64,000 nt of DNA, from contig NC_092323.1 of the NCBI RefSeq assembly GCF_036785885.1, forward strand, positions 12,842,501 to 12,906,500, in the 5' to 3' direction. Positions 10,101-31,369 of the stretch are shown one piece after another. The DNA is from Coffea arabica. Its lineage: Eukaryota > Streptophyta > Magnoliopsida > Gentianales > Rubiaceae. Within the stretch, counting starts at the first letter, position 1; every line of letters begins with the position of its first letter. The notes under the pieces were generated by a model. The model worked only from the letters and a program-made list of their open reading frames with translations. It was not told where the DNA came from and did not search any database. The position numbers and the translations under genes are program-made.

Positions 10101-11012
10101 GGTAATTAGTATCAAAATTATGTAAAAGTGAAAGGGAAGATTGCTGATAACCCCAAGATATCTTTTTTCCGCTATTTGCTAGTTGCACTTCTTTTTTCTT
10201 GGGCCAGGAAACTAACTCAACAATTTGCACTATACTAAAAAGGTAATAGCTCCAGAATTGGACTATAAATCAAAATCAGAATTATTCAACAGTTATACAC
10301 TACAAATCAAAATTAAGTTTTTGCTCCAAACCATCTGCGAAAGAGAGAGCCAATGTAACAAGGCTGTAACACTTCAAAGTGGCATACCAAGTGAGTAAGA
10401 ATGTACTCCAGTATGACCAACTCCAAAAGAAAGAGATTCCTCCATTATAATGACCAATAATAGTCTGTACGGGAAAAAAAAAAAAAGAAAAAAGAAACAA
10501 GATTAATAAAACTAGACCGACCACGCAATAACCAAAAAGCGTTGCTAAATTCTATAATGGTGACTGAAAAGAAGAGTGAGAAACCAGAAAGCTAAATGCT
10601 CCAGCTGAGACAGGCAAGAAATTAGGGAAGATGAATAACACAAAAAAAAAACTAAATAAAAAATAAGGAAGAAAAACAAAAACCTTCCTCGTAAATACTA
10701 CATGCAATTCGAGCTAGAATAACATGTTTCTAACAAGTAACTGATCCCTAATTGACATGATCGATAACATAAGCTAAATTTCCGTACAGAAAAGCAAGAA
10801 AAGAACGCAAATTTTCCAAATCAGAATAGGGCACAAAAATTTACCGTCCAAATATCGGCTGGGACGAGGATGATGATGGAAATTGAGCAAAACCAGGTGT
10901 ACGCTACTGTAAAGTACACGTATCGGGGCACGTCTGGACCGGCGAAATATCTTAGTGTTAAAATCACCATGCCTAGGGTTAGCGGCAAGGAGATCAAATA
11001 GAATACCCACAT
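1145..11012 (-). CDS. LMBRD2: LMBR1 domain-containing protein 2 homologue (LMBD2-type membrane protein)
   Basis: Fourteen exons on the complement: 10845-11012, 10388-10464, 9575-9733, 8826-9039, 8203-8289, 7980-8119, 6526-6606, 4955-5019, 3852-4027, 3287-3417, 3106-3193, 2191-2404, 1898-2004, 1145-1648. All introns are GT-AG and phases sum to a 736-residue protein, close to the usual plant length of about 730. It starts MWVFYLISLPLTLG, a hydrophobic first segment, followed by further membrane segments (for example FFWSWSYWSTFLL, and the block around YAPPISYNF). It ends in a Ser/Lys/Glu-rich hydrophilic tail of about 170 residues. A family-typical cytosolic stretch (REDPSFKPQGG, NDMDYDTDEKSM) lies near residue 240. 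LMBR1-family proteins are multi-pass receptors or transport regulators; animal LMBD2 is linked to G-protein-coupled receptor signalling, and the plant role is not established. The ATG at 11010-11012 is chosen because it begins the conserved N terminus; an upstream in-frame ATG at 11076-11078 would add 22 unconserved residues. Confidence 0.95.
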
Positions 11013-13394
11013 TTTTCTACTTCTTTTTCTAACAATGATCCTGAAATTGAACTGGCTTTTTACAAATTTGGAGGTCAAAATTAGAGTTTAAAATCGTGTT
11101 TTCTGCTTGAATTTGTCGGTGATCACTGTGAATTTCCGGTGCAGCTGAGTTTAGCTAATGTGTGCCGTGTCGCCGACGGCGGACGCAATCCTGCGCCTCC
11201 GTTGCTACTCTATTTCGTCTACAGTGCGCCTGGTGCGCAGTCTACGCGTCTCCCACACTCCACGTTCCTGGGACTTTACTGGGATTTTAAGAATCCCAAC
11301 CGGGAATGCTAGTTTCCTTTAAGTCGTGCAGACGCTTGAACGACTTTATTGCAAAAAGTAAAGCGGCAGCGTCCACACGAGTTTATGACAACTTCAGTAG
11401 CAAGTAAATGTTAGCCGTGGGTTTGTATCCTAATGTGATCAAATTAACTTTTTAATTTTAAAAAAAAAAAAGGGGAAAAGAACCCCTTAATTACAGGTGA
11501 AGAAATATCTATACTTACTATATATAAAGAAAGGGAGTGGAGAGGGTTTAGTATAAACATTTTATTCCCACTTTATGTATTTTCATATTTACTCTCATAC
11601 AAACTAATTATGATAAGTTAAGTGCTTGATTATACCAAACATCTTCTCAAAAGGTAGAGCCTTATTTGGCCGCCATTTTGATTGTTGTTTTTTCGAGTTT
11701 TTACAGAAAATACATTTTTCGTATTAATTTAATGTATGTGAGTTAAAAAAATAATTAGAAAATTTATTCACGAAAAGCATACAAATTTTTTTATGAAAAG
11801 TTTGGAATCCAAACAATACTAGATTTTTGTACTGGCTATCCATTTGATTAAAATTGACAATTGTGACCAACATTGGGTGTTGGTACTATATCCATGGCTG
11901 TATATCTTTAACAATTTTATTTACTTAACCTGGTTCAATTTATATTGCTCTTAAAATTTGTATATTTGGCATTCAGATATTGGTCTAGCTGAACACGAAT
12001 CGGTTGCTATACCACGTTACCAACGAACATGAATCTTTGATTATTCGTATGCGCACAAACATGTAGAGTTTTCATATTTGGGCTATTGCAGAATTGCTTT
12101 TTCGTTTTCATGCCCATTTATTTATTGGAGTTGTGTAGCTGGCCTCTTTTTTTCCCATTCAATTGGACTTGGAAAAGGTTGGGCTCCCACATAATTATAG
12201 TCCAACTTTAAGAATGTACAGGCTCTGTTTGGATTTAACATTTTTTTAAAAATTATTTTTGTTTTTCACATTCATACTACTAAACTATGAAAACAATTTT
12301 TAAAACTTTTGTATCTTTTTTTTCTTTAAAAAAAAAAAGAGGAACAACTTCATATAGTCAAATAGTGCGGGAGCACCTGAGTAAACTTGTCAACGGGTCG
12401 GGTCCGGACCAGAATTCATTATTTCAAACCCGGACCCGGCCTACTATATTGAATATGGATTCGGTCCGCTTATTCAGCGGGTCTTCTACTATATGTTTCG
12501 GATCCGGATCTGACGGGTTTCGGATCCGGATCTGACAGGTCTCAGATCCGCGTCGGGTCTATTCGGAAAAAAATCTATCAAAACTTGTTTTGCAACAATT
12601 TAAAAATGAAACTTATTTTGCCAAGAATTTAAAACGAAGCATGTTTTGCAGCAAATTACAAAGACATTCAAAGTCAATCACAAATCTAAGTCACAAATTA
12701 CAAAGTTAAATCACAAATCACTCACAATAGTCATTTCAAAGTGAACCACAAATCTATCTACAAAAGTCATTCCAAAACGACAAAGTCAATATGAAATCCA
12801 ACAAATTACAACTTCTAAAAGGTTCATTCAAATATTAAATATCAAATACATCATTTCAAGTTTCGCAATTTTCTGCAACAAAAATGAGAAAAAATACATT
12901 TGTAAACTAATTTATAACTAATACAAAAAAAAAACTAAATAAGAAAAGAAATCAAATTGACTTTATTCAAATACATCACCCTAATCAAATTATATTGATA
13001 AATATATATTTTTTAAATGATTAATCCATTTATATTCGAATCTGGATCGAAATACTATATTTCATATCCGACCCTTTTTTAGTTTGACAAAATGGATCTG
13101 GGTCCGGATCCCGATAACGAAATTAAATCCCTATTCGTATCCGAAATAATTTATCGAAATTAAATCCCTAATCGTATTCGAAATAGTTTGATGGATCCGA
13201 TTCGAGACAGGCAGAATCGAGATCTAGTAAATGGGAAGACGACAACCCCTTTCATTTGACCGTATCCACACCGTTAAGCGTTTTATGGGATCATCAACGT
13301 GAAAAGTGTTTTCCATTCAATAACTAAAAGCTTCTGGGGAAAAGGGTTGGGTCTCGGCAACCAAGCAAATGCGCTGTTAAAACTTAAAACTTAA
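11013..13394. other. Intergenic region with repeat remnants
   Basis: No gene seen. It contains the LMBR1 gene promoter side, a Helitron-like 5' end at 11508, poly-A/T runs, and a GC-richer repeat at about 12377-13215 in which forms of CGGATCCGGATCTGAC and GGGTCGGGTCCGGA recur in direct and inverted orientation. The latter looks like a non-autonomous DNA transposon, but clean ends were not found. Confidence 0.5.
11508..11560 (+). mobile_element. Helitron-like 5' terminus (fragment)
   Basis: After a host A the sequence runs TCTATACTTACTATATATAA and on into an AAAGAAAGGGAGTGG-type stretch, the classic look of a plant Helitron 5' end. It resembles the start of the element at 18206. No matching hairpin plus CTRR 3' end was found downstream, so this is probably a truncated copy. 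Confidence 0.5.
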
Positions 13395-13419
13395 GGTGAA
13401 GTCCGGAATTTGGAGTCCG
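13395..13419 (+). promoter_or_regulatory. Shared promoter motif, small-protein gene copy 1
   Basis: The block GAAGTCCGGAATTTGGAGTC is repeated exactly before copy 2 (16556-16581) and in diverged form before copy 3 (29085-29110). It holds two AGTCC units about 14 bp apart. A TATA-like run (TATATATATATG) follows at about 13442, so this is a plausible proximal promoter element. No known factor is assigned. Confidence 0.55.
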
Positions 13420-13823
13420 ATGGTAGGTATACGAGTGGTCCATATATATATATGGGCACATCATCCTTTCCCCATCATTTGCAGTCCGTTCATTTCAAAA
13501 CTGTTGCTGTCTCCCTCCACACCACAACTGGTCCTTGCAGGTATGCTTCCTTTTCTAAACTCAATGGACATCACAAAATTTAGGTTTAGGTGTAGTAATA
13601 AACTACTACTTAAATATGCTTGATCAAATTTCATTCTGACAGAGTTTATGTTAATGTAATGACAATTCGTTAACTTGGAAATTTCTTTTTATGTAATGGA
13701 CATTCATAATAAATTTTTATTTTTTGGGTACAGTTATGTTTTGTTGTATTAGTTACTGCTTATGTGAAGTGGTGTTTGTTAACGATTAGGTAAAGAAGGC
13801 GATCAAGCGTCTAGAAACATCTC

Positions 13824-13988
13824 ATGGCTCGGCTTTGGCAAATTGTATTGCAAAAAATTCTAGGACCTCCAGCTTGGGCGTTTAGAAGAGCTGCGAGACG
13901 ACTACAGCTGATGATTCTCCAATATGAGATGGATGGCCTGAATCCCGAGTATGTTCTGCCAGAAAAGCTTGGCAAGTTCTATGCATGA
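13824..13988 (+). CDS. Unrecognised small protein, 54 residues (family copy 1)
   Basis: Not recognised from any family I know. The frame starts MARLWQIVLQKILGP, then has a basic centre with RRAARR, and ends in YEM-x2-L-x3-YVLP-x7-Y. The N-terminal 20 residues are hydrophobic and could be a membrane anchor or amphipathic helix. A leader intron is likely at 13541-13789 (CAG|GTATGC to GATTAG), with the ATG 34 bases into exon 2. The same arrangement occurs at copy 2 (18017) and, with the same architecture, at copy 3 (29684). Hand alignment with copy 2 gives 38 of 54 identical residues without gaps. The C-terminal block is also kept in copy 3, which argues for real coding. Its function is unknown. 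Confidence 0.72.
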   Translation: MARLWQIVLQKILGPPAWAFRRAARRLQLMILQYEMDGLNPEYVLPEKLGKFYA

Positions 13989-14294
13989 AATAAAAGTCAA
14001 TAGAAATGATAAATAACGCCAAGAAGAATTTGTTTCTTCTTCTTCTTCGTTGTACAGCATTAATGGAGTTTAATTCTCAGACAGAGTTATGTGACTTTTC
14101 TAGCTACTATAGTGCTACTGTATGGGTGGATTCCCGTGATCCGCGTTCGGCAGCAACACCATTTTTCTTTTTGGGTTTAAGACAAAATTGTCTACTCATT
14201 GCAATAAAGAAGAAGGGGAAATGGTCAATTTAGTCCTCCGACATTTTAACTCTCAAGGCGATTTCATCCTTCATCTGTTATTTAGGTAATTTTA

Positions 14295-15764
14295 GGTGGC
14301 GTTTGGTTCGCACATCGGTATCGGATTCGGATTCGGAATCGGATATCTTGGGTTTGGAATGAGATCATTCATTCCAATACATTTGTTTGGTTCAAATACC
14401 TGAAATGTGTATCATTACTATAGTTGATGTTTGGTTCGTCGACTCTTTTGGAATGGAATATAATAAATATATTATAAATCCCATTGTAAATGATAGTTAT
14501 TGGCTCTTTGTAAATGGGATATAAGAAATCTTCACTAATTAAATATATTAATATAAATGTATTAGTAAATTTAGTCTAACTAATTAATAGTTTCTATTAG
14601 TAAACATGTATAATTATTAATATAATTGATAATATTAATTATATTACATAAATTAATATACATTATATAATACATATAAATAATAATATTATTATTATAA
14701 GTTTGTAACTAATTAAATTAAATATTAAATATATAATTAAATATAAATATACAAATGTTATAATTTAAATATATAATTATATAATATATACAAATATTAA
14801 TTATAATAATATTTTATATAAATATAATATATATTACATATTAAATATAGTTATTATTATATATTATTATATTTAAAATAATTATTATTATAATTATATA
14901 ACTTATTAATATTAAATACATGTATATATTATAATTATATGCACATATAATATACATTTATAAATATACATATATATTATAAATATAATATTATATAATA
15001 ATAATAAATTTATAATATATATTATATAAGTATAATTATATTTAACTAAATAATTATAATATATAATTATATAATACAATAACATCATTATTATAAGTTT
15101 GTAACTAATTAAATTAAATATTATATATATAATTAATTATAATTATACAAACTCTATAAAATAAATACATAATTATAATTATATAATATATAAATATTAA
15201 TTGTACTCATATTTTATATAAGTATAATGCATATTAATATTAGATATAGTAATTATTATATATTATTGTATTTAAAATAATAAATATAATTATATAATTT
15301 ATTAATATTATATACATGTGTATATTATAATCATATGCACATATAATATGCATTTATAAATATACATATATATTATAAATATATTATTATATAATATTAA
15401 TAAATTTATAATATATATTATATGAATATAATTATATTTAACTAAATAATTATAATATATATTTATATAATGTACTAATATTATAATTATAATATATTAT
15501 ATATATGTATATATTATAATATATAATATGTATAATATATATAAATATTAATTATATCATTGTATAATTATAATATGTAATTGGATTTGTTTCTTGGAAT
15601 CAAACTTGGGAATCGGACAAAACCCACCAAAATACTTGGGAATGGAGAAACACCAAATTTTTAGAAATCATTCCAAAATTTCAATTCCCATTCCAGTGAA
15701 CCAAACACCATTTATGGAGTTCATTCCATTCCCCGAATCCGATACCCTCTTACCAAACGCCCCC
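14295..15764. mobile_element. Foldback MITE, PIF/Harbinger-like, with AT-rich core
   Basis: The left end GGTGGCGTTTGGTTCG pairs with a right end whose complement is GGGGGCGTTTGGTAAG, and both continue into GGTATCGGATTCGG. Flanking TTA (14292-14294 and 15765-15767) fits the 3-bp target duplication of the Harbinger superfamily. The core (about 14560-15570) is almost pure A+T and contains a roughly 400-bp segment duplicated in tandem (about 14690-15080 and 15085-15480). No transposase frame is present, so it is non-autonomous. Confidence 0.65.
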
Positions 15765-15984
15765 TTAGTCCTTTTAACTTAAAATTAGTAGTCAATTTCA
15801 TCCTTTTGCAATTTTGAAAATTAGTAGTCAACACCATGAAAAGTTGAAAGACTAAAAACATCTATATAAAAAATGAAGGATGAAATTGGTTTAAATAAAA
15901 AAGTTTGAGGATTAAATTGGTCATTTATCTCAATAAATAATTCTAAAGAAAAAAAAAGAAACCAGCACGTTGAATTGAGCCTTT

Positions 15985-16310
15985 CAATTGTTTGTTTGGA
16001 CTGTGATTTTTTGAAGAAAAATTTTTACATTTTTTGTCGACATATTTCTCAATTATTTTTTTTTGTCTTATATATATTAAACTATTACGATATATTTTTT
16101 AACAAAATGTTCTAATCCGTTTGAATTAGCTGTTTTTTTGGAATGTTCTTGAAAAATTTTACTGTAATAGAGTTTTTAAAATATAGAGTTTTTAAAATAT
16201 ATTTTGAAATATTTTTTAAAAATTTAAAAAATTTTATACTACTTTTTAGCATATTTTTTAAAAATTTTTATAATATTTAAAAAATGAGTTTTTGAAAAAT
16301 TGATGGATCC
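15985..16310. repeat. AT-rich MITE-like remnant
   Basis: Stretches such as GTTTGGACTGTGATTTTTTG and TTTGAATTAGCTGTTTTTTT, plus runs of AAAATTTTTAAA, match the style of other AT-rich foldback repeats in this window (21787-27122 and 53396-53998). Ends could not be fixed. No gene is present. Confidence 0.4.
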
Positions 16311-16555
16311 AAAATGAGCCACAATTTAAACAAGATATTTTCTCCATTAAATCACGATGATTTCAAGTTGCAAAAATTTCATTCGGCGGGGCATGCCAAC
16401 CTCATATAATCCCACCGTGCATCACGCGGCGTTCATCTCCCAGTCTCTTTCTAACTGTGTCCCAATTGCTTAAAAGCTACAGGACAAGGATTAGGTCCCG
16501 GCACTTATGGATCATTGATGCAAAAGCCAAATCAAGAAAATGCAGTTAAAACTTA

Positions 16556-16581
16556 GGGTGAAGTCCGGAATTTGGAGTCCG
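16556..16581 (+). promoter_or_regulatory. Shared promoter motif, small-protein gene copy 2
   Basis: It carries the exact 20-base block seen before copy 1, embedded in a longer match beginning GTTAAAACTTA. A TATA-like TTTATAAT lies at about 16589. The downstream leader exon (to 16784) also matches copy 1, including CCGTTCATTTCAAA. Confidence 0.55.
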
Positions 16582-16904
16582 CTGAGAAGTTTATAATAGC
16601 TCCGTACCGATTGCGGCTACATGTCTGCATATAGTTGGATGATCCTTTTCCCCGCTGGCTCCCTTACTGTTCTCTCATAACAGTTTCTGCCCAGAAGAGC
16701 AACCGTGTCGATTCAAACCTGTCTCTCTAAACTTGCACTCCGTTCATTTCAAAGACTGTCGTTACCTACACCTGGCCCTTGCAGGTATGATTCCTTTCTA
16801 AACTCAATGGACGTCACAATTAATATTTAGTTGTACAACTTACTACTTAGATTCGTTTGGAAAAAAAAAAACTACCACTTAGATATGCTTGATCAAATTT
16901 TGGC

Positions 16905-17300
16905 CACGTTTGTCCAATGGATGTTTTTGGATATTTATTTAAAATTTTATCTAGCTTATTGTAAAAAAATTTTTAAAAAATTTTAAGTTATAAAACTTTT
17001 TTTCTTTTCTTTTCTCTCATTTTTCTTCTCCCTCACCTCACAATTCACCCAGCAGATGTTCCGGCATTGACAGCAGCAGCGACAGTTTCTTTTTCCTTTT
17101 TCATAGAAGTTTTAGAAAAAAATTTTTAAATCATAAAACCTTTTTTCTTTTCTTTTCTTTTCTCTCCTCTCCTTCTCCTTCACCGAGCAAAGCTTCCGAC
17201 GCTGACAATGGCAGCGACAATTTTTTTTTCCCTTTTCTCCTCTCCCCCTTTCCTCCCCCCTTGCCTGTTACCTCTCTCCCCTTGCGTTTTAAACAAGAGA
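16905..17300. repeat. Insertion in the leader intron of copy 2
   Basis: Compared with the compact 249-bp intron of copy 1, copy 2 gains sequence after GATCAAATTTT. The insert has two related halves (about 16985-17090 and 17135-17230), each with pyrimidine runs followed by a TTCCGxCxxTGACA block. It resembles a MITE with an internal duplication. A minus-strand open frame at 17131-17331 is low-complexity and not a gene. Confidence 0.45.
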
Positions 17301-17324
17301 GTTTATAGTAACGTACTGACAATT

Positions 17325-17580
17325 TATCCACTGGGCCAATGGCTCAGTGGCCATCAGGAGAGGTACTGACAATTTATCCACTGGGCCAATGGCTCAGTGG
17401 CCATCAGGAGAGGCTTAAGTCTCTCCTTGGGTTGTAGGTGAGGGTTCAAATCTCACCTGCAGTGAAAAAAATCTAAGGGTTGTGCCATAACACTTCTTTG
17501 ATTTAGTTGGGTCTGTATACCCACTAACCCCCTGTCACAGCCTCCTTAGGCTCCCCTCCCTCCTAGATTAGGATAGAGTA
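17325..17580 (+). mobile_element. tRNA-derived SINE with 15-bp target duplication
   Basis: A perfect AACGTACTGACAATT flanks the element at 17310-17324 and 17581-17595. The body has a box A-like TGGCTCAGTGG and a box B-like GGGTTCAAATC, the internal RNA polymerase III promoter. The empty site survives in the copy 1 intron near 13655 (TAATGACAATTCG). The first 50 bases, with part of the left target duplication, are tandemly repeated (17313-17362 and 17363-17412), so that duplication came after insertion. Confidence 0.8.
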
Positions 17581-18016
17581 AACGTACTGACAATTCATTA
17601 ACTTTTAATTTTCTTATCATTTTTTGTACCTGCTATCCAATCCTCATCTTTCCCTTCGCTCCTAAATTTCAACAAATAAAAAATGAAAAATTCACGCCAT
17701 TCTTTATTGAGACGGCCGACAACAAACTATGCATATCAAGAGTGCACTTGAATTTAAAGCTCAAAACAATATGAATTCTCTACATTCTTTCTTAGCTAGC
17801 CAATTGCGTTTGGATGAGAATTAGTAATGATTTCGAGATGAGCTTGAATCTTCGTACAAGTTTCATTTCTCCTAACAATCAACCATGGCCGTGTTATCTC
17901 CACATTCATAATAATTTTTTTTTCAGTACAGTTATGTTTTGTTGTATTAGTTACTTATATAAAGTGGTGTTTATTAACGATTAGGTAAAGAAGCCGATCA
18001 AGCATTTTGAAACATC

Positions 18017-18181
18017 ATGCCTCGGCTTTGGCAAATTGTATTGAAAATAATTCTAACAACCCCAGCTTTGGCACTTAGAAAAGCGTCGAGACGATTTCAG
18101 CGGATGATTATCCAATATGAGATGGAAGGCCTGGCTCCCGAGTATGTGCTGCCAGAAAAGCTTTACAAGTTCTATTCATGA
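18017..18181 (+). CDS. Unrecognised small protein, 54 residues (family copy 2)
   Basis: The frame starts MPRLWQIVLKIILTTPALAL, then RKASRR, and ends YEMEGLAPEYVLPEKL followed by YKFYS. It aligns with copy 1 without gaps. A leader intron is inferred at 16785-17984; at 1,200 bp it is about five times longer than in copy 1 because of the repeat at 16905, the SINE and further sequence. Both splice junctions (GCAG|GTATGA and GATTAG|GTAAAG) are kept. By hand count 16 codons differ by replacement and 3 by silent change versus copy 1; replacements crowd the N-terminal two thirds. Its 3' flank is split by the Helitron starting at 18206, 25 bases after the stop. Confidence 0.7.
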   Translation: MPRLWQIVLKIILTTPALALRKASRRFQRMIIQYEMEGLAPEYVLPEKLYKFYS

Positions 18182-18260
18182 AATATAAGTCAATAGAAAT
18201 CCTAATCTTACATATAGAAAGAGGGAGTTTAGTTTAGCGATAATGGTTTTGGTCCCCTAT

Positions 18261-18752
18261 GGACAATTTTATGAATTCAATTGTGTATGCTATTGGTCAA
18301 GGTTAGTTTCAACTCTGATAATGTGAGACATAATATGGTCCAAATATTTTTTGTGACTATGTTTACCTTATAAGTCAATTATACCTTTTGTTTCTACTAC
18401 ACTCTGTACTGATTGGGATGATATTGAGTGGGTGGACAATTTGTGAATTCAATTGTGTATGCTATTGGTCAAGGTTAATTTCAACTCTGATAATGTGAGA
18501 CATAATATGGTCCAAATATTTTTTGTGACTACGTTAACCTTATAAGTCAATTATACCTTTTGTTTCTTCTACACTCTGTACTGATTGGGATGATATTGAG
18601 TGGATGGACAATTTTGTGAATTCAATTGTTCAACTCTGATCATGTGAGACAGAATATGGTCCAAATATTTTTTGTGACTACGTTAACCTTATAAGTCAAT
18701 TATACCTTTTGTTTCTTCTATAATCTGTACTTATTGGGATGATATTTGAGTC
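18261..18752 (+). repeat. Tandem repeat, about 172-bp unit, 2.9 copies
   Basis: Units begin GGACAATTT at 18261, 18434 and 18606 (173 bp, 172 bp and a shorter third). They share GGTCAAGGTTA, GTGAGACATAATATGGTCC and GGGATGATATT. The third copy lacks about 25 bases near its start. It lies within the Helitron. Confidence 0.85.
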
Positions 18753-18951
18753 TTTGATAATTATATACTAAGTTGAATCTAGGCTCTCTTTCTGGTATGT
18801 GTTATCCAAGTTGGCTGCCCATAGTTATGTTAGTGGGCCAAAATTTGGGTAGACTCGATTTTCAAAAATTCAATAGTCTAAATTGTGCCACACAACTTCA
18901 TCAAATATCATCCCAATAAGTACAGATTATAGAAGAAACAAAAGGTATAAT
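18699..18951. repeat. Perfect 51-bp inverted repeat
   Basis: Bases 18699-18749, the end of the third tandem unit, are the exact reverse complement of 18901-18951, with a spacer of about 150 bp. Part of the spacer (about 18825-18895) has a diverged inverted partner outside the right arm (about 18962-19025), giving an interleaved A-B-A'-B' order. Confidence 0.85.
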
Positions 18952-19898
18952 CATCAAATAATGTAGCACAATTTGAATCATTGAGTTTTTAAAAACCAGG
19001 TCTATCCAAATGTGAGCCCATACAACGTACTTTTACCTTCATCTTGTAATTATTTAGTTCTCCCAAGAAAAACTTATTCTCTTAACTCAAATCTCTCTAA
19101 ATACATAACCAATTAATAAATGCATAAAAGCTCCAAGTTTCAAGTTAATTTTCCTCAATCCTTTGGATTTAAACCTCCAATGGTGTGCTTAAACCTAATA
19201 TTTTTTACAACTGTTTAATAGTTGCATGAAGTAATATAGATGGTTGAATTGATTTTTTGTATTAAATTAAAAGTTTAGCATAGAAAAGTCAGTGCTTTGA
19301 ATATCTTAGTGATTAATTATAAAAAAAATGGATCTTATCATTAGTTACATATATAAATTGAACTTATATTCCTTAGTTTCCCAAAAAAAAAAGAAAAAAG
19401 AAAAAAAAGAGACTTATACTCTTTAGAATAGCTGCATAAGTGCAATAATTTAGTTTCATAAATTGTACTATTTAATATGTAGCTATGTTTGATTGATGAA
19501 TAGATTTAATACTTGAAGTTGCACTACTTTAATATTGCTAAATCAATGATCATTAATCTTAATTGCTTTCAATTCAAAATTAAATTACATTAATCGAAAT
19601 GGGATATGCACAAGTTTGGTGTATGTTTGTATATCGCTAAAAAGTTTTAGCTTATTCAAGTCAATTTGTATTGTTAAATTTCTCTTTTCAATGTTCCATT
19701 GGTTTCTCAACTATGAGATTGCATCTCCTGGATGATTGCAACTTGCAATCTGTAATGTGTTAGAAGTAAGTATCTTGCACTCAAATAAACCCTCCAATTT
19801 ATGGATACTTGGGCAGTAAATTACAAGCATCACTAATCGATGAATACTCTTCCATTCTTTATAGGCACAAAAAAAAATTTTTTTATGACTTTCATCTG

Positions 19899-19936
19899 GG
19901 CAACGTCATGTATCGCATGATGCCCCAACAAACTAG
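19899..19936 (+). mobile_element. Internal Helitron-type 3' end
   Basis: GGGCAACGTCATG can pair imperfectly with CATGATGCCC, and CTAG follows with T next, as at a Helitron 3' end. It is similar in layout to the terminus at 21474-21511. About eight bases on, TCCTATCCTATCC after an A could be the 5' end of a second Helitron. Confidence 0.5.
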
Positions 19937-20927
19937 TAATAAAATCCTATCCTATCCTAAATCCTAAAAGAATAAAAGCGGGAATGGAGTTAGGAACAGT
20001 GACTTTCGTCCCTCATTGGCACCTTGGCTGTGTGACCATTTTTGGAATTTCACAGCAAAGGCTGAAGTGATGGTGCGGTGCTGATGAAGGATCGGTCGGC
20101 TGGGATTTGTTATTGTGATAGCATTTTGCTATCCTACCCCTTGGTACCTATTTTGCCTCTTCAAGAGGAATGCCAACACAGTACGAGTTATTGTCTTTTT
20201 CGTCATTTCAGCCCATTAATTACTCGACAATTGGGACTCAGATACTAATGGTGCGGCCCTCTCCAAAAAAGAAAAAAATACTAATGACGTGGGGCAGTGG
20301 TGCTTTGTTGGTTGTCAGGCTCCTTCTGCTCGATTTAATCATGGTTCAAATTCCTACACATCACCAATAATCATAAAAGAAATAGAGCGGTGTTTCAGCA
20401 TTTGGCCATTGTCTTCTGCTGCGGAATTCCATCAATGGGCTGTGCACTATTCCAATAAATGCAATTGAAATTCCTCCTAAAGTTGCAGAATCAGTTCATA
20501 AAAATTCGATGGTAAACCAATTTTCTGGACATTGCCGACAACAGATTGAAATCCCATGTATCTTTACAATGTGGCAACAATTTTTCAGATTGAAAGGAAA
20601 AATATCTGCAAAACATCTTGATTGAACAGCCATCAATGATAGTTACGAGTGCCCACCTATCTATTATCTTTTCAATATCAGTCTAGTTGCTCAAACTCAA
20701 AGAACCACTGGAATGTCATTTGAGCCATGTTCCTGAAGGCATTGCAAAGATTGGATATCCAATAGGCGTTCCCTACGAATTCAATGGTGCTGGTCACCTT
20801 GCATCCATGGGGAACAACAATAAACCAGCTCACTATAGTAGAGAAAAAGGCCTTTATATTAGTTTCAACTATTGCAGTAAATGATTTCTAAATCACATGT
20901 CCCATCGCTGGTTTGTTTTGGCATAAG

Positions 20928-21285
20928 TAGGGATGTAAATAAATTGAATCGAGTTTCGACGTAATTTTACAAAACTTGAATTTGAGCTCGAGTTCGACGA
21001 GTTCTCAATATAAAACTCAATCTCGTACTCGATTCAAGTTTTAAAAAAATAAAAAAATTTATTTTATTTTTATAATAAAATATTAGGAATATATATATGT
21101 AATTTTACTATTAAAATTATATATATATATATATATATAATCAAGTCGACTGGCAAGCTAACGAATTTGGTAATTTTGAATTTGAGTTCGACTTGATCAG
21201 CTCAATCTCGACTCGATTTTGATCAAACTTGAGCTGAGTTCGAATTCGAACTACTCGCGAGCGACTTAATTCGTTTGCAATCCTA
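20928..21285. mobile_element. hAT-like MITE inside the Helitron
   Basis: The ends TAGGGATGTAAA and TTGCAATCCTA are imperfect inverted repeats. The flanks GGCATAAG and CACATAAA are a decayed 8-bp target duplication (core CATAA). The interior is full of GAGCTCGAG-like words and their degenerate forms, as in the elements at 40802 and 45398. Confidence 0.5.
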
Positions 21286-21511
21286 CACATAAATATATGA
21301 AATAGATGTAAAACTGAATCATTTTGTATCTGAACATCCTTCGATTTTTCCTTTTTCACCACCTATTCTCTCTAATGCTCTCTTTCACTCTAACAAATTC
21401 TATCCAATTCCCAAAATTCTATCCAACAGCTATCATACATATACAAATTGAATACAATAAAAGTACACTGCCTGGGCAACCTCACGCGACGCGCGAGGCC
21501 CTATCAACTAG

Positions 21512-21700
21512 TAACAAATAAAGTCGAGAGAAGAATTTGTTTATTCTTCGTCGCACAACGCTGGAGTTAAATTGTCAGACGTTACCGTGTTACTTTTCTA
21601 AGTACCACAGTGAGGAATCCCGTGATCCACGTTTGGGAGCTACAGGATTTTTTTGGCCCTTTTGGATTTAAAAAGAATTGACTAGTCATTGCAATCCCGT
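21512..21700 (+). other. Displaced 3' flank of small-protein gene copy 2
   Basis: This stretch resembles the 3' region of copy 1 at about 14020-14215, sharing GAAGAATTTGTTT, AATCCCGTGATCC-like words and CATTGCAAT, at very roughly 70% by eye. It directly follows the Helitron 3' end. It therefore reads as the original downstream sequence of copy 2, pushed 3.3 kb away. Confidence 0.6.
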
Positions 21701-22860
21701 GATCCACTTTTCGGATCAGTTTGTATTAGCTGTTTTTTGAGTTATTTTTGAAAAATAATACTGCAGCATTTTGTTTTTGAAATACAAGTTCGTTTGGATT
21801 AGTTATTTTTGGGGTTGTTTTTCAAAAACTATGTGAAAAACTTTTACTGTAGATTTTTTTGGATTATTTTTAGAGGTATTTTTAAAACATATTTTTTGAA
21901 TATTTTTATAATTTATAATTTATATATTTTGTATGCATTTATAATACATTTATATATTTATAAATAAATATATTTATATATTTATATATTTATAAATAAA
22001 TATATTTATATATTTATAAATAAATATATAAATATATTATAAATGTATTATATTATATATAATACATAATATAAATATATTTATAAATGTATAAATGTAT
22101 ATTATTATAAATGATTATATAAATGTATAAATTATAAATTATATTTTTATATTTTTATATAAATATACATTTATGCATTTATAATACATTTATAAATATT
22201 TATAAATAAATATATTTATATATTTATATAAAAATATATAAATGTATCATAAATGTATTATATTATATATAATACATAATATAAATATATTTATAAATGT
22301 ATAAGTGTATATTATTATGAATGTATAAATTATAAATGAATATTATATAAATGTATAAATTAATATATTATAAATATATATTAATATTATGTATATTAAT
22401 ATAAATGTATAAATATATTATATTATATATAATACATAATATAAATGTATATTATAAATATACATAAATATATATATTATGTATAAATTTACATTTATAT
22501 AAATGTATAATATATATAATATATAATATTTATATAAATATATTTTAAATATATTTTAAATAAAATAAAATATTTATAATATGAATAAATAAATAAATAA
22601 ATATTTAATATATATAATATAATTAATATTAATTATAAATATTATAATATTATAAATATGGTGTTTATATAATATTTCAATTTGTAATGTTTATTGTATA
22701 TTTCATTATATAAATATTTATATAATATATAATATAAAATTTTCAATTTGCATAATATACATAATATTGTATATATTTAATATAATATACATAATATACA
22801 TTTATACATTATTACATATTATGTATAGTATATATTATACATAACATTATTATACATTAT

Positions 22861-23867
22861 TGTAAGAGCCCGGTGCAACCCAATGAGTACAAACAAATTC
22901 ACAATGATGCACAAAGATATATCAAATTTAAGCACAATAAAGAAAACTTAATTAAAGAGAAAAGATAAGAAATGCAAACCAAATATCAAACCAATAGCCT
23001 CTTCAATTGATGGCGATGCTAACCAAGATGTACAAGTGAAGGCTCACTCCTTCCTCACCCCAAATACTCTTTGGTTGAGCCAAGGAGTTTTACAACTATT
23101 CTAGTTAACCCTCAACAACCTACACTTGAAAGATCACTCACCCAATTAAGAACTATTTTATACAAATGAGGCAACCTTCACCAAGGTTTTACCACTCCAA
23201 GTGATTGGTTCACCTTCACCAAGGTTTTACTACTCCAAGAGAGTAACCTTCACTTGAGCAACCTCACAACCCAACTTCCCCAACCCCTTATACAACCAAC
23301 AAAGAATCTTTCTACTCAAAAATCTCACTTGTAAGCTTGTATTTTGTGTTGGCAAAAGTCCCTTGTCTTCTTGTGCTTTGGGGTATTTATAGAAGGTGAG
23401 AAATGGCTTCAAAAGACTCTCTAACGGTCAAATATTAAATGCTGTCAAAACTAGCCGTTGGCCTGTCGGACGTCCGAACCACCTGTCGGACGTCCGAACC
23501 CTGCGTTCAAACCACCTGTCGGACGTCCGAATCCTGCGTCCGAACGCCGTCAGAGAGTCATCAAATCTTTGCGAAATTTCTCGGACGTCCGATGAGATCG
23601 ATGTGCGTCCGATGCGTGCGTCCGATCCTTCCGGACGTCCGATGCTTCCTCACGAGCGTCCGACAGAGTTTCCTTCTTGATGTTCTTCATCCTTTCGGAC
23701 GTCCGATAGCTTCCTTTCGGACGTCCCACATGAGTGCCCTGTTTTTGCTTCTTCTTTTGTGCCACAAGAATCTGTTCTAACAAATTGCTCACATAAAAAC
23801 ATTAGCCCAAATCTACATTTTAGTTTGTTAATCATCAAAACCAAGGATTGATCGACCAAGGTCAACA
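22861..23867 (-). repeat. LTR (3' LTR in element orientation)
   Basis: 1,007 bp, TG...CA. It differs from its partner at five sites, all transitions. Seven CGGACGTCC words and several GCGTCCGA half-words lie at about 23463-23730. Confidence 0.93.
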
Positions 23868-23869
23868 AT

Positions 23870-23881
23870 CTCCCCCTTTTT
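23870..23881 (-). other. Polypurine tract
   Basis: On the minus strand this reads AAAAAGGGGGAG, two bases from the 3' LTR, as expected for the plus-strand priming site. Three more AAGGGGGAG-type tracts occur at 23934-23943, 23982-23992 and 24012-24023. Confidence 0.85.
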
Positions 23882-24112
23882 GATGATGACAAACAAAATG
23901 AAGATTTCTTTTATCAAATAAGTTCAAATAAAGCTCCCCCTTAGAAAGTGCCAACATACAAAGAAATTTCAATAAATCCTACTCCCCCTTTTGGCATCAA
24001 TAAAAAACAAACTCCCCCTTTATTTTTCAAATCAAGACCATATTGAATATCAAAATTTTCAATTGTACTTACAACCATATAGCACTTCTTGGATCAAATC
24101 TTCATGATGTAC

Positions 24113-25660
24113 CTAAATATGAGAAATTTCATTTGGTACCCTTTCTTTATAGGGTCCTTGGGAGTTAATACAACATGATCTAGCAATCCACATGGATTTC
24201 ATACCTTTTCTCATATTTTTCTTTACATAGCAATCATTTTGCATATGTCCAAATTGGCAACAAAAGTGACACATGATAGAAGTATTTTGCACATAGGTGG
24301 ATTTAATGCAACTAATTTTCTTACTTCTTATCATAGCAAACTTATTTGTACCTTGAAAAGATTTGCTTTCTTTTGTTTGAGAAAACGTTTGTTTTTCATT
24401 TTGGAGAAACTCGTTCAAGTCATTAATTCTTTTCTTTAACACATTTTGTTCTTCCAACATTTTTTCATAAAACTTTGTTTTCTCTTCCAACTTCCTTTTC
24501 AAATTATTTTTGCAATCAAAAACACTTTTTTGATTTTTTAAATCATCATTTTCCATCCTCAAACATTTGTTTTCTTGAAAAAGTTTGGAGTTTTCTTCCA
24601 ACAAATCATTTATTTTTGTTTTCAAATCTTTATTTTTAGCATAAGATTTTCTCAAACTTTTATGCATTTTAATCATAAGAATTTTCACATCATCATCTTC
24701 ATTATCTTCATCACAAGAAGAGTGATAAGAACTTATCTCATCTTCTCCAACGGCCATTAGTGCCATTTGGGCCAACTCTTCTTTTTCTCTTTTTGAATTG
24801 CATTCATCCCATGTAATTTTGCAATCTCCTCTTGAACATCTCTTGTTGAAGATCTTCTTGAAACTTTTGATGTGAGGAGTTATATCATTGTCCACTTCCA
24901 TGATTTCATTACCCATGAAGGATGGGTTATCCCCCACTTGAGATGTTTTAAAAGCTATGCCTCTCTTATACATTCTTGCATTTTCTTCCTCTTGCACTTT
25001 GAATTTCAGCTTTAATTCATAAGAGGTTAGGGTATCCACAAGAGATTCAATGGACATAGAATTTAAATCCTTTGCCTCTTCTATAGCATTTATTTTGTTT
25101 TCCCATTCTTTTGGCAAGGCATTCAAAATCTTTCTATTTTTCTCACCCAAAGAATATTCTTTTTCAAGCAATTTAAGATCTTCAATAATGTCACAAAATC
25201 TACTACACATCTCATCAACATTTTCAAGAGGATGCATTTTGAAAAATTCATATTGAGAAACAAGCAAAGATTTCTTTTGTTCTTTAATATCTTGGTTACC
25301 TTCATGAAATACACACAATTTATCCCAAATATCTTTAGCTGATTTACAACCTTTAATCCTACTAGATTCATTTACATCTAATGCATTGTACAATATACAC
25401 ATGACCTTGGCATTCAAAGAAAGGTATCTCTTGTCTTTTTCATTCAATTCTTGTCTAGTCTTTAATCTACTCAAATTGATGATAGAGTCAACTATTCTAG
25501 CTTCATAAGGACCATCTTCTACCACATACCATAATTCAATGTAAACAGATTGTAAGAAAATCATCATTCTTTGTTTCCACATGCTAAAATGAGAACCATT
25601 AAACATAGGTGGTCTATCAATAGATTGCCCTTCTAAAAAAGAAACTTTTATGGTTGCCAT
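24113..25660 (-). CDS. gag: Copia-type Gag protein, 515 residues
   Basis: An intact frame with a Copia gag (UBN2/DUF4219-like) N terminus: a MFNGSHFSMWKQRM-type start, then a helical capsid-like region to about residue 250. A long Lys/Glu-rich coiled-coil-like stretch covers about residues 330-430. A zinc knuckle CHFCCQFGHMQNDC (C-x2-C-x4-H-x4-C) lies near residue 475, about 40 residues before the stop. Gag forms the virus-like particle that packages element RNA. The frame ends without any pol extension, and the 245 bases up to the 3' LTR hold only polypurine tracts. The intact reading frame fits the young age of the element. Confidence 0.92.
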   Translation of the reverse strand: MATIKVSFLEGQSIDRPPMFNGSHFSMWKQRMMIFLQSVYIELWYVVEDGPYEARIVDSIINLSRLKTRQELNEKDKRYLSLNAKVMCILYNALDVNESSRIKGCKSAKDIWDKLCVFHEGNQDIKEQKKSLLVSQYEFFKMHPLENVDEMCSRFCDIIEDLKLLEKEYSLGEKNRKILNALPKEWENKINAIEEAKDLNSMSIESLVDTLTSYELKLKFKVQEEENARMYKRGIAFKTSQVGDNPSFMGNEIMEVDNDITPHIKSFKKIFNKRCSRGDCKITWDECNSKREKEELAQMALMAVGEDEISSYHSSCDEDNEDDDVKILMIKMHKSLRKSYAKNKDLKTKINDLLEENSKLFQENKCLRMENDDLKNQKSVFDCKNNLKRKLEEKTKFYEKMLEEQNVLKKRINDLNEFLQNEKQTFSQTKESKSFQGTNKFAMIRSKKISCIKSTYVQNTSIMCHFCCQFGHMQNDCYVKKNMRKGMKSMWIARSCCINSQGPYKERVPNEISHI

Positions 25661-25702
25661 GATCTTTACTCTAAGCGGTTAAGCTTGATCAAAAGAGACC
25701 AA

Positions 25703-25714
25703 GCTCTGATACCA
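25703..25714 (-). other. Primer-binding site, initiator Met-tRNA type
   Basis: On the minus strand TGGTATCAGAGC follows the 5' LTR after a two-base spacer. It is complementary to the 3' end of plant initiator methionine tRNA, the usual Copia primer. Confidence 0.92.
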
Positions 25715-25716
25715 AT

Positions 25717-26723
25717 TGTAAGAGCCCGGTGCAACCCAATGAGTACAAACAAATTCACAATGATGCACAAAGATATATCAAATTTAAGCACAATAAAAAA
25801 AACTTAATTAAAGAGAAAAGATAAGAAATGCAAACCAAATATCAAACCAATAGCCTCTTCAATTGATGGCGATGCTAACCAAGATGTACAAGTGAAGGCT
25901 CACTCCTTCCTCACCCCAAATACTCTTTGGTTGAGCCAAGGAGTTTTACAACTATTCTAGTTAACCCTCAACAACCTACACTTGAAAGATCACTCACCCA
26001 ATTAAGAACTATTTTATACAAATGAGGCAACCTTCACCAAGGTTTTACCACTCCAAGTGATTGGTTCACCTTCACCAAGGTTTTACTACTCCAAGAGAGT
26101 AACCTTCACTTGAGCAACCTCACAACCCAACTTCCCCAACCCCTTATACAACCAACAAAGAATCTTTCTACTCAAAAATCTCACTTGTAAGCTTGTATTT
26201 TGTGTTGGCAAAAGTCCCTTGTCTTCTTGTGCTTTGGGGTATTTATAGAAGGTGAGAAATGGCTTCAAAAGGCTCTCTAACGGTCAAATATTAAATGCTG
26301 TCAAAACTAGCCGTTGGCCTGTCGGACGTCCGAACCACCTGTCGGACGTCCGAACCCTGCGTTCAAACCACCTGTCGGACGTCCGAACCCTGCGTCCGAA
26401 CGTCGTCAGAGAGTCATCAAATCTTTGCGAAATTTCTCGGACGTCCGATGAGATCGATGTGCGTCCGATGCGTGCGTCCGATCCTTCCGGACGTCCGATG
26501 CTTCCTCACGAGCGTCCGACAGAGTTTCCTTCTTGATGTTCTTCATCCTTTCGGACGTCCGATAGCTTCCTTTCGGACGTCCCACATGAGTGTCCTGTTT
26601 TTGCTTCTTCTTTTGTGCCACAAGAATCTGTTCTAACAAATTGCTCACATAAAAACATTAGCCCAAATCTACATTTTAGTTTGTTAATCATCAAAACCAA
26701 GGATTGATCGACCAAGGTCAACA
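25717..26723 (-). repeat. LTR (5' LTR in element orientation)
   Basis: 1,007 bp, same ends as its partner. The palindrome-rich segment is at about 26319-26585. Confidence 0.93.
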
Positions 26724-27466
26724 ATTATTATACACAATAATGTACATAATAATGAAAGTACATTAATAATGTATATATTATAATGTAATGTACATAATAT
26801 ATTATGTATACAATATTTATACATTTATGTATACAATAGTACAATTATGTATATTATATTATGTTTATGTATAATATACAATATTATGTATAATATTGAT
26901 ATATAAATATAGAATTTTCAATTTGTATATCTCAATTTATATTAATATAATATAAATACGTAATATACATAATTGAAATATACATATTAAATATGTATAT
27001 TTGGAGTTGTTTTTGATATAATGTTTGGATGTTTTTGGAATTGTTTTTGAAATACACATTTACTGTAACATTTGGAATGTGAAAAATAATTTTTCAAAAA
27101 CAGAGGCAAAAACAAGGAATCCAAACGGTGTAGAAAGAAGCCAGCATGTCAAACCAGCCCTTCAGTTATGCACTCTATCCTTGAATAAAGGTCCTGTACT
27201 CTGTCTTTTCAATTTAATCACGATGATTCCAAATATTAAAATTTCTCTACTGCAGTATTTAATGATATTCTACTACTAATTAGTGGACAAATTTTGCTTT
27301 CTAAAAGAGATATTCACATGGTTATTTGCTATACCACAAAGCTTAAAGTTGTTTCATTTCTATTTGAAAATAAAATTGATCGATGAAAGTTTGCCAACAC
27401 ATGGATTTAGATCGATAAGCGTAACTTTTCGAATTCAACACGGCAATGCCTTATCATTTATGCCTA

Positions 27467-27770
27467 GTTTGGGAGTTCAGATTTCAAAGGAATAGAAAAG
27501 AAAGGAAGGGAAAGGTGGACTTTTCTCCGTTTGGGACATTTAAGTGAGACAGAAAAGAAAAGAAATGAACGGATCTTGAAGGGAAGCCAAGCGCTGCTAC
27601 AGTGCAAAATTTTTTCTGACAAAAAGGGACGGAAAGCGAAGGAAAACTGATGGAAGCTTACAAAATTTTTTCAAATTGCCCATTTTATCCTCACAAAGGT
27701 ATTGGATAAAATTTTATTGACATATATATCCAAAATCATTCCATTTCTTTTCAGAGCTCCCAAACAACAT
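27467..27770. repeat. MITE-like repeat
   Basis: GTTTGGGAGTTCAGATTTCA at the left is roughly inverted at the right (TTTCAGAGCTCCCAAAC). The interior is purine-rich with AAGAAAAG words. No clear target duplication was seen. Confidence 0.4.
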
Positions 27771-29084
27771 TAAAATTTCTTCTTTTCTTTTTTTTTTATC
27801 CTTTCTTTTCTCTCATGATTTAACCTTTCTCTTCTTTTCTTTTCTATCCTCAACTCACAAACTAGCTAACTCTCTCCACCCCATTCAACCAAGTTGTCAT
27901 GCTTCCCTTTTTAATCTGTCCCAGACTCAAAAGTTTGTTTACATTCAATTTCAACACCTACCCTTTTAAAATATGGTCCTATAATTTGGTAAGTGACAGA
28001 CGCCCATAAAAGTATGTCATGCAACGTAATCTGGGATCATGCATTTTTTAGTTAAACAAAATAGATAGGCTCCACAATAATAAATTTACAACATAACTTT
28101 CTTTTTTAAATGAAAATTTTCACTAATTTTTTTGAATTAATTATGCATACTATAACTTTTGCATATATAACACGTTCTCGTATATGCTCTCACACAAAAT
28201 ACACATTTGCTCTTTTTTTTGTTCACATGCATAAAAATCCACACTTAAATACCACATCTAAATTATTTCATTATTTTCTATTTCTCTCCAACACGCGCAT
28301 ACACACATTTCTTTCTCTCTAAATGAACAAATAAATGTAATTTTTTAAGACATAAAAATACAATATTTTTGCGATATTTCAATTCAACACTATAATTCAG
28401 TTAGCTATTAAACAGATACTACTATATAACTTAATCAATTCAATAACTTAATATCTTCCGCACTTCATTTTAATATTTCAAAATTCAGATCTCTTATCAA
28501 GCGGGCCCAGTGGTCTGATGATTAAAGCTGTCCTTTCGAAACCGACAGATTCGTAATGAAAGCTCGAAAAAATGAATTAGCTCTCGTCCTCAAATTAGTA
28601 GTTTCTACATTAATGAATTAACTCGTAATGATGTTCTTTTTTGCTTCATCTTTGTTGTTCATTTAACTTTGTTTTTGTTAAAAATTTTTAATATCGGTTT
28701 CAATTAAAAAATGTTGGATGGACTAAAATGGACGCAACAAGAATTCATAGGACCGGATAAACGCGAAATTTTGCGTAGAATAAAGAATCGGACTTTGCGG
28801 ATCAGAAAAAATTAGAGGACATTATGTCAGAGAGATTAAGAAACTTAAAACTTGAATATATTAGGAATCACTACCTTTTTTTTTTCCCTCCTTTATATTT
28901 GAGCGGGAGGAAATTCACCAACTCATCATTGTAAATGCAGACAAGCCAAGAAGCACGACAGGGACGAGCCCTTTAATACTGTCCACATATCCACACGGGA
29001 AACTGGTCTATTTCATAAATAAAATCGCTATCCAAATTATTATATTGTTGTGCTACATAATTGGTGTTGTTAGTGTATAGTTCA
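27771..29084. other. Intergenic, no gene seen
   Basis: AT-rich sequence with pyrimidine tracts near 27780. A short tRNA-like or SINE-like scrap at about 28500-28570 has no convincing box B. No coding frame of note. Confidence 0.45.
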
Positions 29085-29110
29085 GATGAAATCCGGACTT
29101 TGAAGTCCAC
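29085..29110 (+). promoter_or_regulatory. Diverged shared promoter motif, copy 3, with TATA box
   Basis: GAAATCCGGACTTTGAAGTC corresponds to the motif before copies 1 and 2. A good TATA box, CTATAAAAGG, follows at about 29116, placing transcription start near 29145-29155. Confidence 0.55.
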
Positions 29111-29683
29111 TCAGAGGCCTATAAAAGGCACTATGATCCGAGGCACAGTTTAGACGCAGATGCAAAAGTTCAGCTGTGAGTTGTAGTCCATTCTACATTT
29201 TGGACTTCATCTTTGAGTTTTTACGATCCTTATAACTGGTATGTACTCTCTCTAAATTCATCAATCACAATCCAAAACTTCTTCATTAATTACCAATCAT
29301 TTCCGGCATGCACGTATTTGATTATAGATATAAGTAAGACTCGCTCATTTCCTGGGGTTAAGATTTCTGGTTCAAATCTCTCTTGCCCTTCTCTACTTCT
29401 TTATGTGACTCGTGTTTATAAAAAGATTGTATTATTTTCCTAGTTTTCTATCATTCATTGACTAGAAAAAAGAACAAGTATACGTGCATGGATGTAACCA
29501 AGATTGACTTGCAATCAAAATTCACAACCACGTTAGCTGCTGAACCTTAACTGATGTCAGAAATGTTACTCTTACGCGGTGTGGTACCTTTATCGTCTGG
29601 TTTTGGCTTTTGGGAGCTAATGTGTATATATATGTACGTAAAAATTTCAGGAGTAAAGGAGGGGGGATCAAGAATTCCGAGAC

Positions 29684-29857
29684 ATGGCTGATTGGATTTG
29701 GATCCTGATGCTCCAAATCGTTCTTCTGCCAGCCCAGGTGTGCAGAAAAGTGTGGAATCATCTTCGGCTGGAAACCATGAAATATGAGATGCGTGATCTG
29801 AACCAGCAGTATGTTCTTCCGGACAATGTATTACAGAGGATGTATTCATATGATTAG
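29684..29857 (+). CDS. Unrecognised small protein, 57 residues (family copy 3)
   Basis: The frame begins MADWIWILMLQIVLLPAQV, strongly hydrophobic, and ends with YEMRDLNQQYVLP and QRMYSYD. The YEM-x2-L-x3-YVLP-x7-Y signature and the single-frame layout match copies 1 and 2, though overall sequence is much diverged. A leader intron of about 412 bp (29239-29650, CTG|GTATGT to TTTCAG) mirrors the others. A possible poly(A) signal, AATGAAATAAA, lies at about 30059. Antisense open frames over the same bases are shadows. Function unknown; a membrane-associated small protein is one guess. Confidence 0.65.
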   Translation: MADWIWILMLQIVLLPAQVCRKVWNHLRLETMKYEMRDLNQQYVLPDNVLQRMYSYD

Positions 29858-30759
29858 TATAGTTAAGTAACTAAGGGTTTAGACTTTTGTCTGGTACACC
29901 AAACAGAAAAGTTGTAAACGTTATCTCTACTCATCCCTAGGAAAAAGAAGGGGGAGTGGGATTTATGAATACTGATTCATGGTCCCTTATTATGTCCTGA
30001 CTTCCGAGTGTTATTGGACAGTAGGACCCTCTGTTCCTTCTATGTATGCCCTTGTTCACAATGAAATAAATTACACACGATTTCCTTGTAGCTGATTGGA
30101 AAGCTCGTCTTTTCCTTCTTTAATAAAGCTAATCAAAGGCTTTGAGCTGGTCGATCTTGAGCCTTTTTTTGCCATTCGTTTCATACTTTGCTCTGCTGCA
30201 CTGGCCTTTAGTTTTTCCTTTCTGTTTTCCCTTTAATTCTTTCAAATTTGACTCGTTTGTAGACTGCCAAACTTGCCTAAGAAAATTGGTTTCTTGTTAT
30301 TGGTTCCATGAACATGTTTACCCAACAAATGATGTCCATATATTACAAGTTTAGTTACTTGTTCATCGATGCACTAGTCAATACAATTAACCTATTGAAC
30401 ATTGATGTTAGTTGCATTGATAGTTTCATTCACAAGTTAGCCTAGAAGTGTTAGTTACAGATACTGCTATTAGTCTTTTTACTTATTTCAATTTGTATCA
30501 TCAGGGTTTACTAATAAGTTTGAACCATGAGTTTTGGTTGCCTTGATTTCTTGCTGGTCCAATAAGCAGACCAGAGTTGCCTTTTATTAGTTAATATCAT
30601 CTGTCTTATGTCTGCCTATTGTTTCAGCTTTGATTCCCATTCTGGCTCCTGCTCTTATTAGATATTGCTGATTGTTTCTTTAAATCTCTGTTATTCCTGC
30701 TCTCCTATAAAATTTGTTTATTTCCCATATGTATATGTATCGCCAATCAACATCCCTGT

Positions 30760-30790
30760 TCGGGCAACCTCGCGCGAAGTGTACTCGATT
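30760..30790 (+). mobile_element. Helitron 3'-end-like fragment
   Basis: CGGGCAACCTCGCGCGAAG closely resembles the hairpin region just before the Helitron terminus at 21474-21498, but the CTAG end is missing. Confidence 0.35.
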
Positions 30791-30935
30791 TGGTTGATCC
30801 GACCCGCACCGTGCGGGTCAACAATTTTCTAACCCTTATCCGTTCTGCATGTCAGCGGTACCCGATTATAGAGTATCCGTTAAAATAGGATCGAGTCAAC
30901 AGGTATCCGTTCTACCTCACTTATCATTTAATTTT

Positions 30936-31369
30936 GGATAAAAAACAAAAAAATCCCTGTGTTAAGCCTAATATACAGAAAAGCCTCCCGTGATTTCAAA
31001 ATATATAACATGACACCCCGTACTTTGAACTAAATTGTAAAGGTAATTGAATCCGTTAAACTTAACGGAATTGGACGAAATGACCATAATGCCCTGATAT
31101 AATTAAGCAAAAGACAGCTCAAAAAAATCGTTTGTTTTATTCTCTAGATAGAGAGAATTGAGCGTTAAGAGGTAGAACATGTATATTTGTTAAAAATTAA
31201 GTATAAATTTTTTTTTAAGTTCCAATAAGTCATTTCTATTAAGTTTAACGGATTCCGTCACTTTTACAATTTAGTTTAAAGTACGAGGTGTCGTGTTGTA
31301 TATTTTGAAATCATAGGGAATTTTTCTGTGTATTAGGTTTATCATAAGGGACTTTTTTGTATTTTACCC
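30936..31369. mobile_element. Mutator-like MITE with long terminal inverted repeats
   Basis: About 130 bp at each end are inverted copies, sharing for example TGATTTCAAAATATA and ATCCGTTAAACTTAA. The flanks TTTAATTTT (30927-30935) and ATTAATTTT (31370-31378) match at 8 of 9 bases, as expected for an older Mutator-type target duplication. No coding frame. Confidence 0.6.

Follow-up and report, generated by a model that had tools for sequence, protein, structure and literature searches.

Analysis of a 64,000-base window of the Coffea arabica genome, located on chromosome C14, revealed three related short genes, here called A, B and C, which likely represent a real, unrecognised plant family of 6-7 kDa microproteins; the coding evidence is good, although not decisive. 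Taken as a whole, the best explanation of the data is an undescribed microprotein family combining a membrane helix with a docking tail, a reading to which we give slightly less than an even chance. That the three frames are translated protein-coding genes is, by itself, very probable. The frames comprise 54, 54 and 57 codons, all on the plus strand and spanning 16 kb, and were found at 13824, 18017 and 29684, as claimed in an original prediction made from the sequence alone. A tblastn search within the window related all three to one another, with expectation values (E) of 7.6e-22 for A-B, 2.4e-6 for A-C and 1.0e-5 for B-C. Proteins A and B are 70% identical, compared with about 38% for A-C and 37% for B-C; the E values and identities together therefore indicate kinship and not chance similarity. 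The genes had been described as a tandem, which holds for their common strand, but they are spaced, with starts lying 4.2 kb (A-B) and 11.7 kb (B-C) apart.

The predicted signature, YEM-x2-L-x3-YVLP-x7-Y, is common to all three proteins, except for its last spacer: seven residues separate YVLP from the last tyrosine only in C, compared with six in both A and B and three in the homoeologue of A (see below). Alignment of five proteins, comprising A, B and C plus the A and C homoeologues (that of B being identical to B), revealed 16 invariant positions, namely M1, W, L, L, PA, R, YEM, L, YVLP and the last Tyr. They fall within the core of the helix and within the tail, and conservation is strongest toward the C-terminal part of the proteins.

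Beyond the coding frames, the three loci share a common plan, consisting of a promoter motif, a short exon 1, a leader intron and an exon 2 with the sequence GATCAAG shortly 5' of the ATG (Table 1). The leader intron, part of the original prediction, is readable in all three genes from comparison of donor and acceptor sites. Proposed donors are CAG/GTATG in A and B and CTG/GTATG in C, proposed acceptors are TAG/ in A and B and CAG/ in C (slashes marking the junctions), and the leaders following the acceptors are alike. Exon limits were derived from this comparison, and splicing is putative. Within the B leader intron, the stretch 17315-17480 resembles, by eye, a short interspersed nuclear element (SINE) derived from transfer RNA, with a partial direct copy adjoining; it was not seen in the shorter intron of the B homoeologue. 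Directly 3' of gene B, a unit of ~173 bases is repeated in tandem at 18260-18751, with copies 89-93% alike.

Table 1. Coordinates of the features proposed for genes A, B and C in the window.
Feature	Coordinates	Strand	Details
Gene A promoter motif GAARTCCGGNNTTTGRAGTCCR	13398..13419	+	the 39 bases around it are the same in the homoeologue
Gene A proposed leader intron	13541..13789	+	249 bases; paralogue comparison
Gene A coding frame	13824..13988	+	54 amino acids; homoeologue at C13:10919423, 51 amino acids
Gene B promoter motif	16560..16581	+	paralogue comparison and genome pattern search
Gene B proposed leader intron	16785..17984	+	1200 bases, enlarged by repeats; sequence comparison
Gene B coding frame	18017..18181	+	54 amino acids; copy in other subgenome identical
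Gene C promoter motif	29088..29109	+	TATAAAA at 29120, 3' of the motif
Gene C proposed leader intron	29239..29650	+	412 bases; paralogue comparison
Gene C coding frame	29684..29857	+	57 amino acids; homoeologue at C13:10925760

To define the extent of the family, we searched the whole genome of the allotetraploid Coffea arabica (1,197,963,845 bases in 131 contigs), in which we infer C13 and C14 to be homoeologous chromosomes. A methyltransferase of the coffee caffeine pathway finds its best matches in this genome on C17, in three pieces of 97-99% identity, and on C18, at 94-96%. C13 carries the same three genes in the same order and on the same strand as C14, and all copies (6/6) are open. Stops or frameshifts in homologues had been named beforehand as a sign against the prediction; in the homologues within reach, all three homoeologous frames were open (3/3), and the sole indel, 9 bases between the A homoeologues, keeps the frame. 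Query A returned six genomic places, all belonging to the family, and query C returned seven, the seventh being a match on C15 (E 0.75, one stop) that was taken as chance. The tail, expressed as a degenerate DNA pattern, matched eight times, corresponding to the six family genes and two sites on C17 and C18, while a control pattern gave no match; the C17 and C18 sites sit in stop-rich DNA and were rejected as members. With A and C as queries and the best candidates scored, the 1.2 Gb yielded no further credible member, although very distant ones could escape such a search. Overall, the family appears to comprise three genes per subgenome.

Synonymous divergence (Ks) amounts to 0.13 between A and B and 0.80 between A and C, and the regional mismatch rate between homoeologues is 0.034. 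As all three genes are found in both subgenomes, the duplications predate the subgenome split. With a Ks of about 0.8, the duplication that separated A from C is old, and the family should therefore exist outside Coffea. Homoeologue identity in the syntenic blocks around the peptide genes (11673-40494) is 87.5-95%, as compared to 97.5-98.2% in 3871-11614. Between B and C, the region 19617-28388 measures ~8.8 kb on C14 versus ~0.3 kb on C13; this difference is an insertion or deletion postdating the subgenome split.

The upstream motif of the original prediction was borne out by a shuffle test, in which the score of the best ungapped upstream match was reached by 2 of 300 shuffles for A-C and by 1 of 300 for B-C. 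Genome-wide, the 22-base motif GAARTCCGGNNTTTGRAGTCCR is unique to the family, with six matches, each 5' of one family gene, and none for a control pattern; the motif pattern was derived from these six genes, so that its own matches arise by construction and the information lies in the absence of others. A looser core of the motif matched eight times (control pattern, 1), and the two extra matches, one on C1 and one on C2, were attributed to chance, as they fall within a frame of 311 codons. Comparison of the subgenomes around the motif showed 39-base stretches unchanged in A and B and a single mismatch in 34 bases in C. Downstream, TATAAAA starts 10 bases after the motif in C and an AT-rich stretch follows in A, with none marked in B. 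By eye, the motif contains near-repeats of GAARTCC and, in C, a putative inverted repeat, GGACTT-TG-AAGTCC, as would be expected for the site of a dimeric factor. The inverted repeat was also flagged by a bacterial-type promoter scan of 29000-29300, a model unsuited to this host. Searching the open-access literature for the motif DNA strings gave no plant-promoter paper among the matches listed.

Comparison with known families agreed with the claim that the family is unrecognised: no credible match was obtained in Pfam (one below-cut-off match for C, E 0.087), NCBIfam (no match for the three proteins), PHROGs (one match for B, E 0.092), PDB (one match by sequence, E 1.9, not credible, and none by profile) or Rfam (no match at gathering score in 13000-31000). 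Pattern searches yielded 19 matches in viral contigs and 159 in prokaryote genomes, none of which was confirmed as a relative. In the open-access literature, the YVLP and YEM motif strings returned nothing relevant by title among the matches listed, with one unrelated silkworm paper, and small-ORF (open reading frame) and coffee small-peptide publications gave no lead among the matches listed. The genes had further been proposed as an 'undescribed system'; this goes too far, as the data link nothing but paralogues and a common promoter motif, and the genes could belong to a plant family already described outside the libraries searched. The old A-C split, which leads one to expect orthologues in other plants, speaks for this possibility, while the lack of a credible match in Pfam-A or the other libraries and of the motif strings in the literature matches listed, unrelated papers aside, makes it rather unlikely.

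Between the subgenomes, none of the 165 coding bases of B differ, compared with 54 of 1020 chosen flank and intron bases (5.3%; p 0.0002, or p 0.0007 allowing for three genes), and the tract free of differences, 17964-18184, has nearly the same limits as B exon 2. Pooling A, B and C gave 12/495 coding versus 157/3677 non-coding differences (p 0.028), with the motif, proximal promoter, exon 1 and exon 2 leader omitted from the non-coding counts. Indels within the frames were multiples of three in 4/4 cases, as compared to 40/234 in the syntenic regional alignment (p 0.001). These four comprise three between paralogues and the one between the A homoeologues, the two extra end residues of C being uncounted. 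The paralogue gaps were taken from the protein alignment, which forces multiples of three; a nucleotide alignment placed three-base gaps at two of these sites, and the first three-base difference is ambiguous. When divergence to the A-C level was simulated with substitutions only, the two frames both stayed open in just 1.5-1.6% of cases. The frame conservation fits a standalone translated short ORF, in the broad sense of a plant non-secreted microprotein, and we take the frames to be probably coding, B being under constraint and A and C having diverged outside their common core.

Several observations weigh against this reading. When B is left out, A and C show 12/330 coding versus 103/2657 flank differences (p 0.49), and the constraint signal therefore rests on B, the identity of which could also stem from gene conversion between the subgenomes. 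The indel background was taken from homoeologues, but three of the four frame indels lie between the older paralogues. Simulated divergence to the A-B level leaves 20% of pairs open. The ratio of nonsynonymous to synonymous substitution (omega) is 1.30 for A-B (bootstrap 0.52-5.87), 0.67 for A-C (0.33-1.29) and 0.67 for B-C (0.33-1.25), and in no paralogue pair is it significantly below 1. The omega values and the unconstrained A and C, together with a promoter motif conserved as well as the frames, would suit a non-coding origin, that is, a duplicated transcript or promoter unit with frames open by chance and the B identity resulting from gene conversion. Such an origin is nonetheless improbable in view of the frame-keeping indels and the 0.015 chance of both lineages remaining open, and the genes show neither a stable RNA fold nor an Rfam family. 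Across the three genes, five stretches that overlap one another gave fold z scores of 0.10, 1.13, -0.14, 0.66 and -0.65, and on this range, from -0.65 to 1.13, together with the missing Rfam match, a structured or known non-coding RNA was rejected.

The predicted proteins have masses of 6.4 (A), 6.5 (B) and 7.1 kDa (C), isoelectric points (pI) of 10.0, 10.0 and 6.5, and 0, 0 and 1 cysteines, respectively. Maximum Kyte-Doolittle values over 19 residues, a measure of hydropathy only, are 0.63 (A), 1.21 (B) and 1.64 (C). The hydrophobic N terminus attributed to all three proteins is thus found in C, is middling in B and is weak in A, where the segment is better called amphipathic and basic; that of C could be membrane-spanning or a signal sequence. 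Structure models, built from 3- and 5-row alignments, showed one long helix followed by a short C-terminal helix at modest confidence, with the helix predicted at 4-38 in A (mean predicted local distance difference test (pLDDT) score 66.1) and 2-43 in C (70.1). The simplest model covering all three proteins combines a helix associated with a membrane and a tail for docking, albeit one weakened by the barely hydrophobic N terminus of A and the unlike pI values.

Two other fates of the proteins were weighed. As secreted peptide-hormone precursors, they would combine a signal peptide with a mature C-terminal signal perceived by a receptor kinase of adjacent cells, which matches the hydrophobic N terminus of C and the location of the strongest conservation; we give this little credence, given the poor, charged N-terminal segments of A and B and a length that is short for a precursor. 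Similarly improbable are small organelle proteins, which a basic amphipathic N-terminal half would target to mitochondria or plastids to act there as small subunits or in assembly. In favour of this fate, the first acidic residue of A and B comes no earlier than position 35, and both proteins contain several Arg/Lys and have a hydrophobic moment as high as 0.62. Against it, C has an Asp at position 3, its lower pI and a lower moment (0.53), and divergence as fast as observed (omega 0.67-1.30) is unusual for such subunits.

Under the preferred membrane-and-docking reading, each gene would probably be transcribed from a promoter with the common 22-base element, and each transcript would probably be spliced in its leader. 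The product would be a 6-7 kDa protein consisting mainly of one long helix, hydrophobic or amphipathic toward the N terminus and carrying the invariant W, L, L, PA and R, followed by the conserved tail YEMxxLxxxYVLP. The helix would most likely seat the protein at an intracellular membrane, the tail would dock a partner, and a regulator would be dosed through the protein level that the common promoter element sets. The data show the kinship of the genes, their common locus plan, open frames in both subgenomes and a promoter element unique within this genome; transcription, splicing, translation, membrane seat and docking are all steps that we infer, and the membrane-plus-docking mechanism itself is tentative. 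A bolder version, namely a new family of coffee and its relatives with paralogues co-regulated by a dedicated 22-base element and a tail representing a new docking or ligand motif, appears unlikely.

The remaining neighbourhood contains repeats and ordinary genes. A pair of frames of 95 and 113 codons is present in two near-identical copies, at 23393-23780 and 26249-26636, on either side of a gag frame of copia type (PF14223; 24113-25660 on the minus strand), so that 23393-26636 is arranged as in a long terminal repeat (LTR) retroelement carrying gag alone. AT-rich repeats at 14536-15582 and 21896-22864 are mutually similar in both orientations. Ordinary neighbours include SCAI (PF12070) at 42060-42656 and SNAPC3 (PF12251) at 54436-54762, and a frame at 1145-1657 (minus strand), with no Pfam match, resembles the C-terminal end of an LMBR1-like protein.

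Genes of 54-57 codons are readily overlooked by annotation, and the present family lends itself to checking in a crop for which RNA data are public, as it combines three paralogues, each present in both subgenomes, with a clear signature and a specific promoter element. Should it extend to plants other than coffee, which the deep A-C split leads one to expect, a further family of small plant proteins is gained.

Among known systems, conserved-peptide upstream ORFs share with the coffee genes a short conserved frame behind a leader. They are followed by a main ORF, however, whereas the coffee genes have no shared main frame after them, and the upstream-ORF reading was rejected on finding no later frame common to the genes (transcript ends assumed). 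A 75-codon frame behind A (14006) is without ATG in the A homoeologue, no frame of at least 45 codons starts in the 1.9 kb 3' of gene B, and gene C has a 38-codon frame 122 bases 3' of its stop. With transcript starts assumed, the leaders contain no ATG in A or B and one in C, opening an 8-codon frame. ROT4/DVL (ROTUNDIFOLIA4/DEVIL) proteins have about 40-60 residues and a conserved C-terminal part, and the coffee proteins are likewise short with a conserved C-terminal part; membership was rejected, as a Pfam-A scan with E up to 10 gave no DVL match in 3/3 proteins. POLARIS, likened by description only, is also very short, but its 36 residues are unlike the 54-57 found here. Membership in CYSTM, defined by a Cys-rich C-terminal transmembrane module, was rejected on the cysteine counts given above and the lack of a Pfam match. 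In excerpts of PMC10638237, ROT4/DVL are described as short, non-secreted plant proteins localised to the plasma membrane, POLARIS as a very short intracellular plant peptide at the endoplasmic reticulum and CYSTM as small, non-secreted, cysteine-rich transmembrane plant peptides that are membrane-linked. ROT4/DVL and CYSTM are the nearest kinds named in these excerpts, and they are excluded as families to which the coffee proteins belong, but not as analogues of their mode of action.

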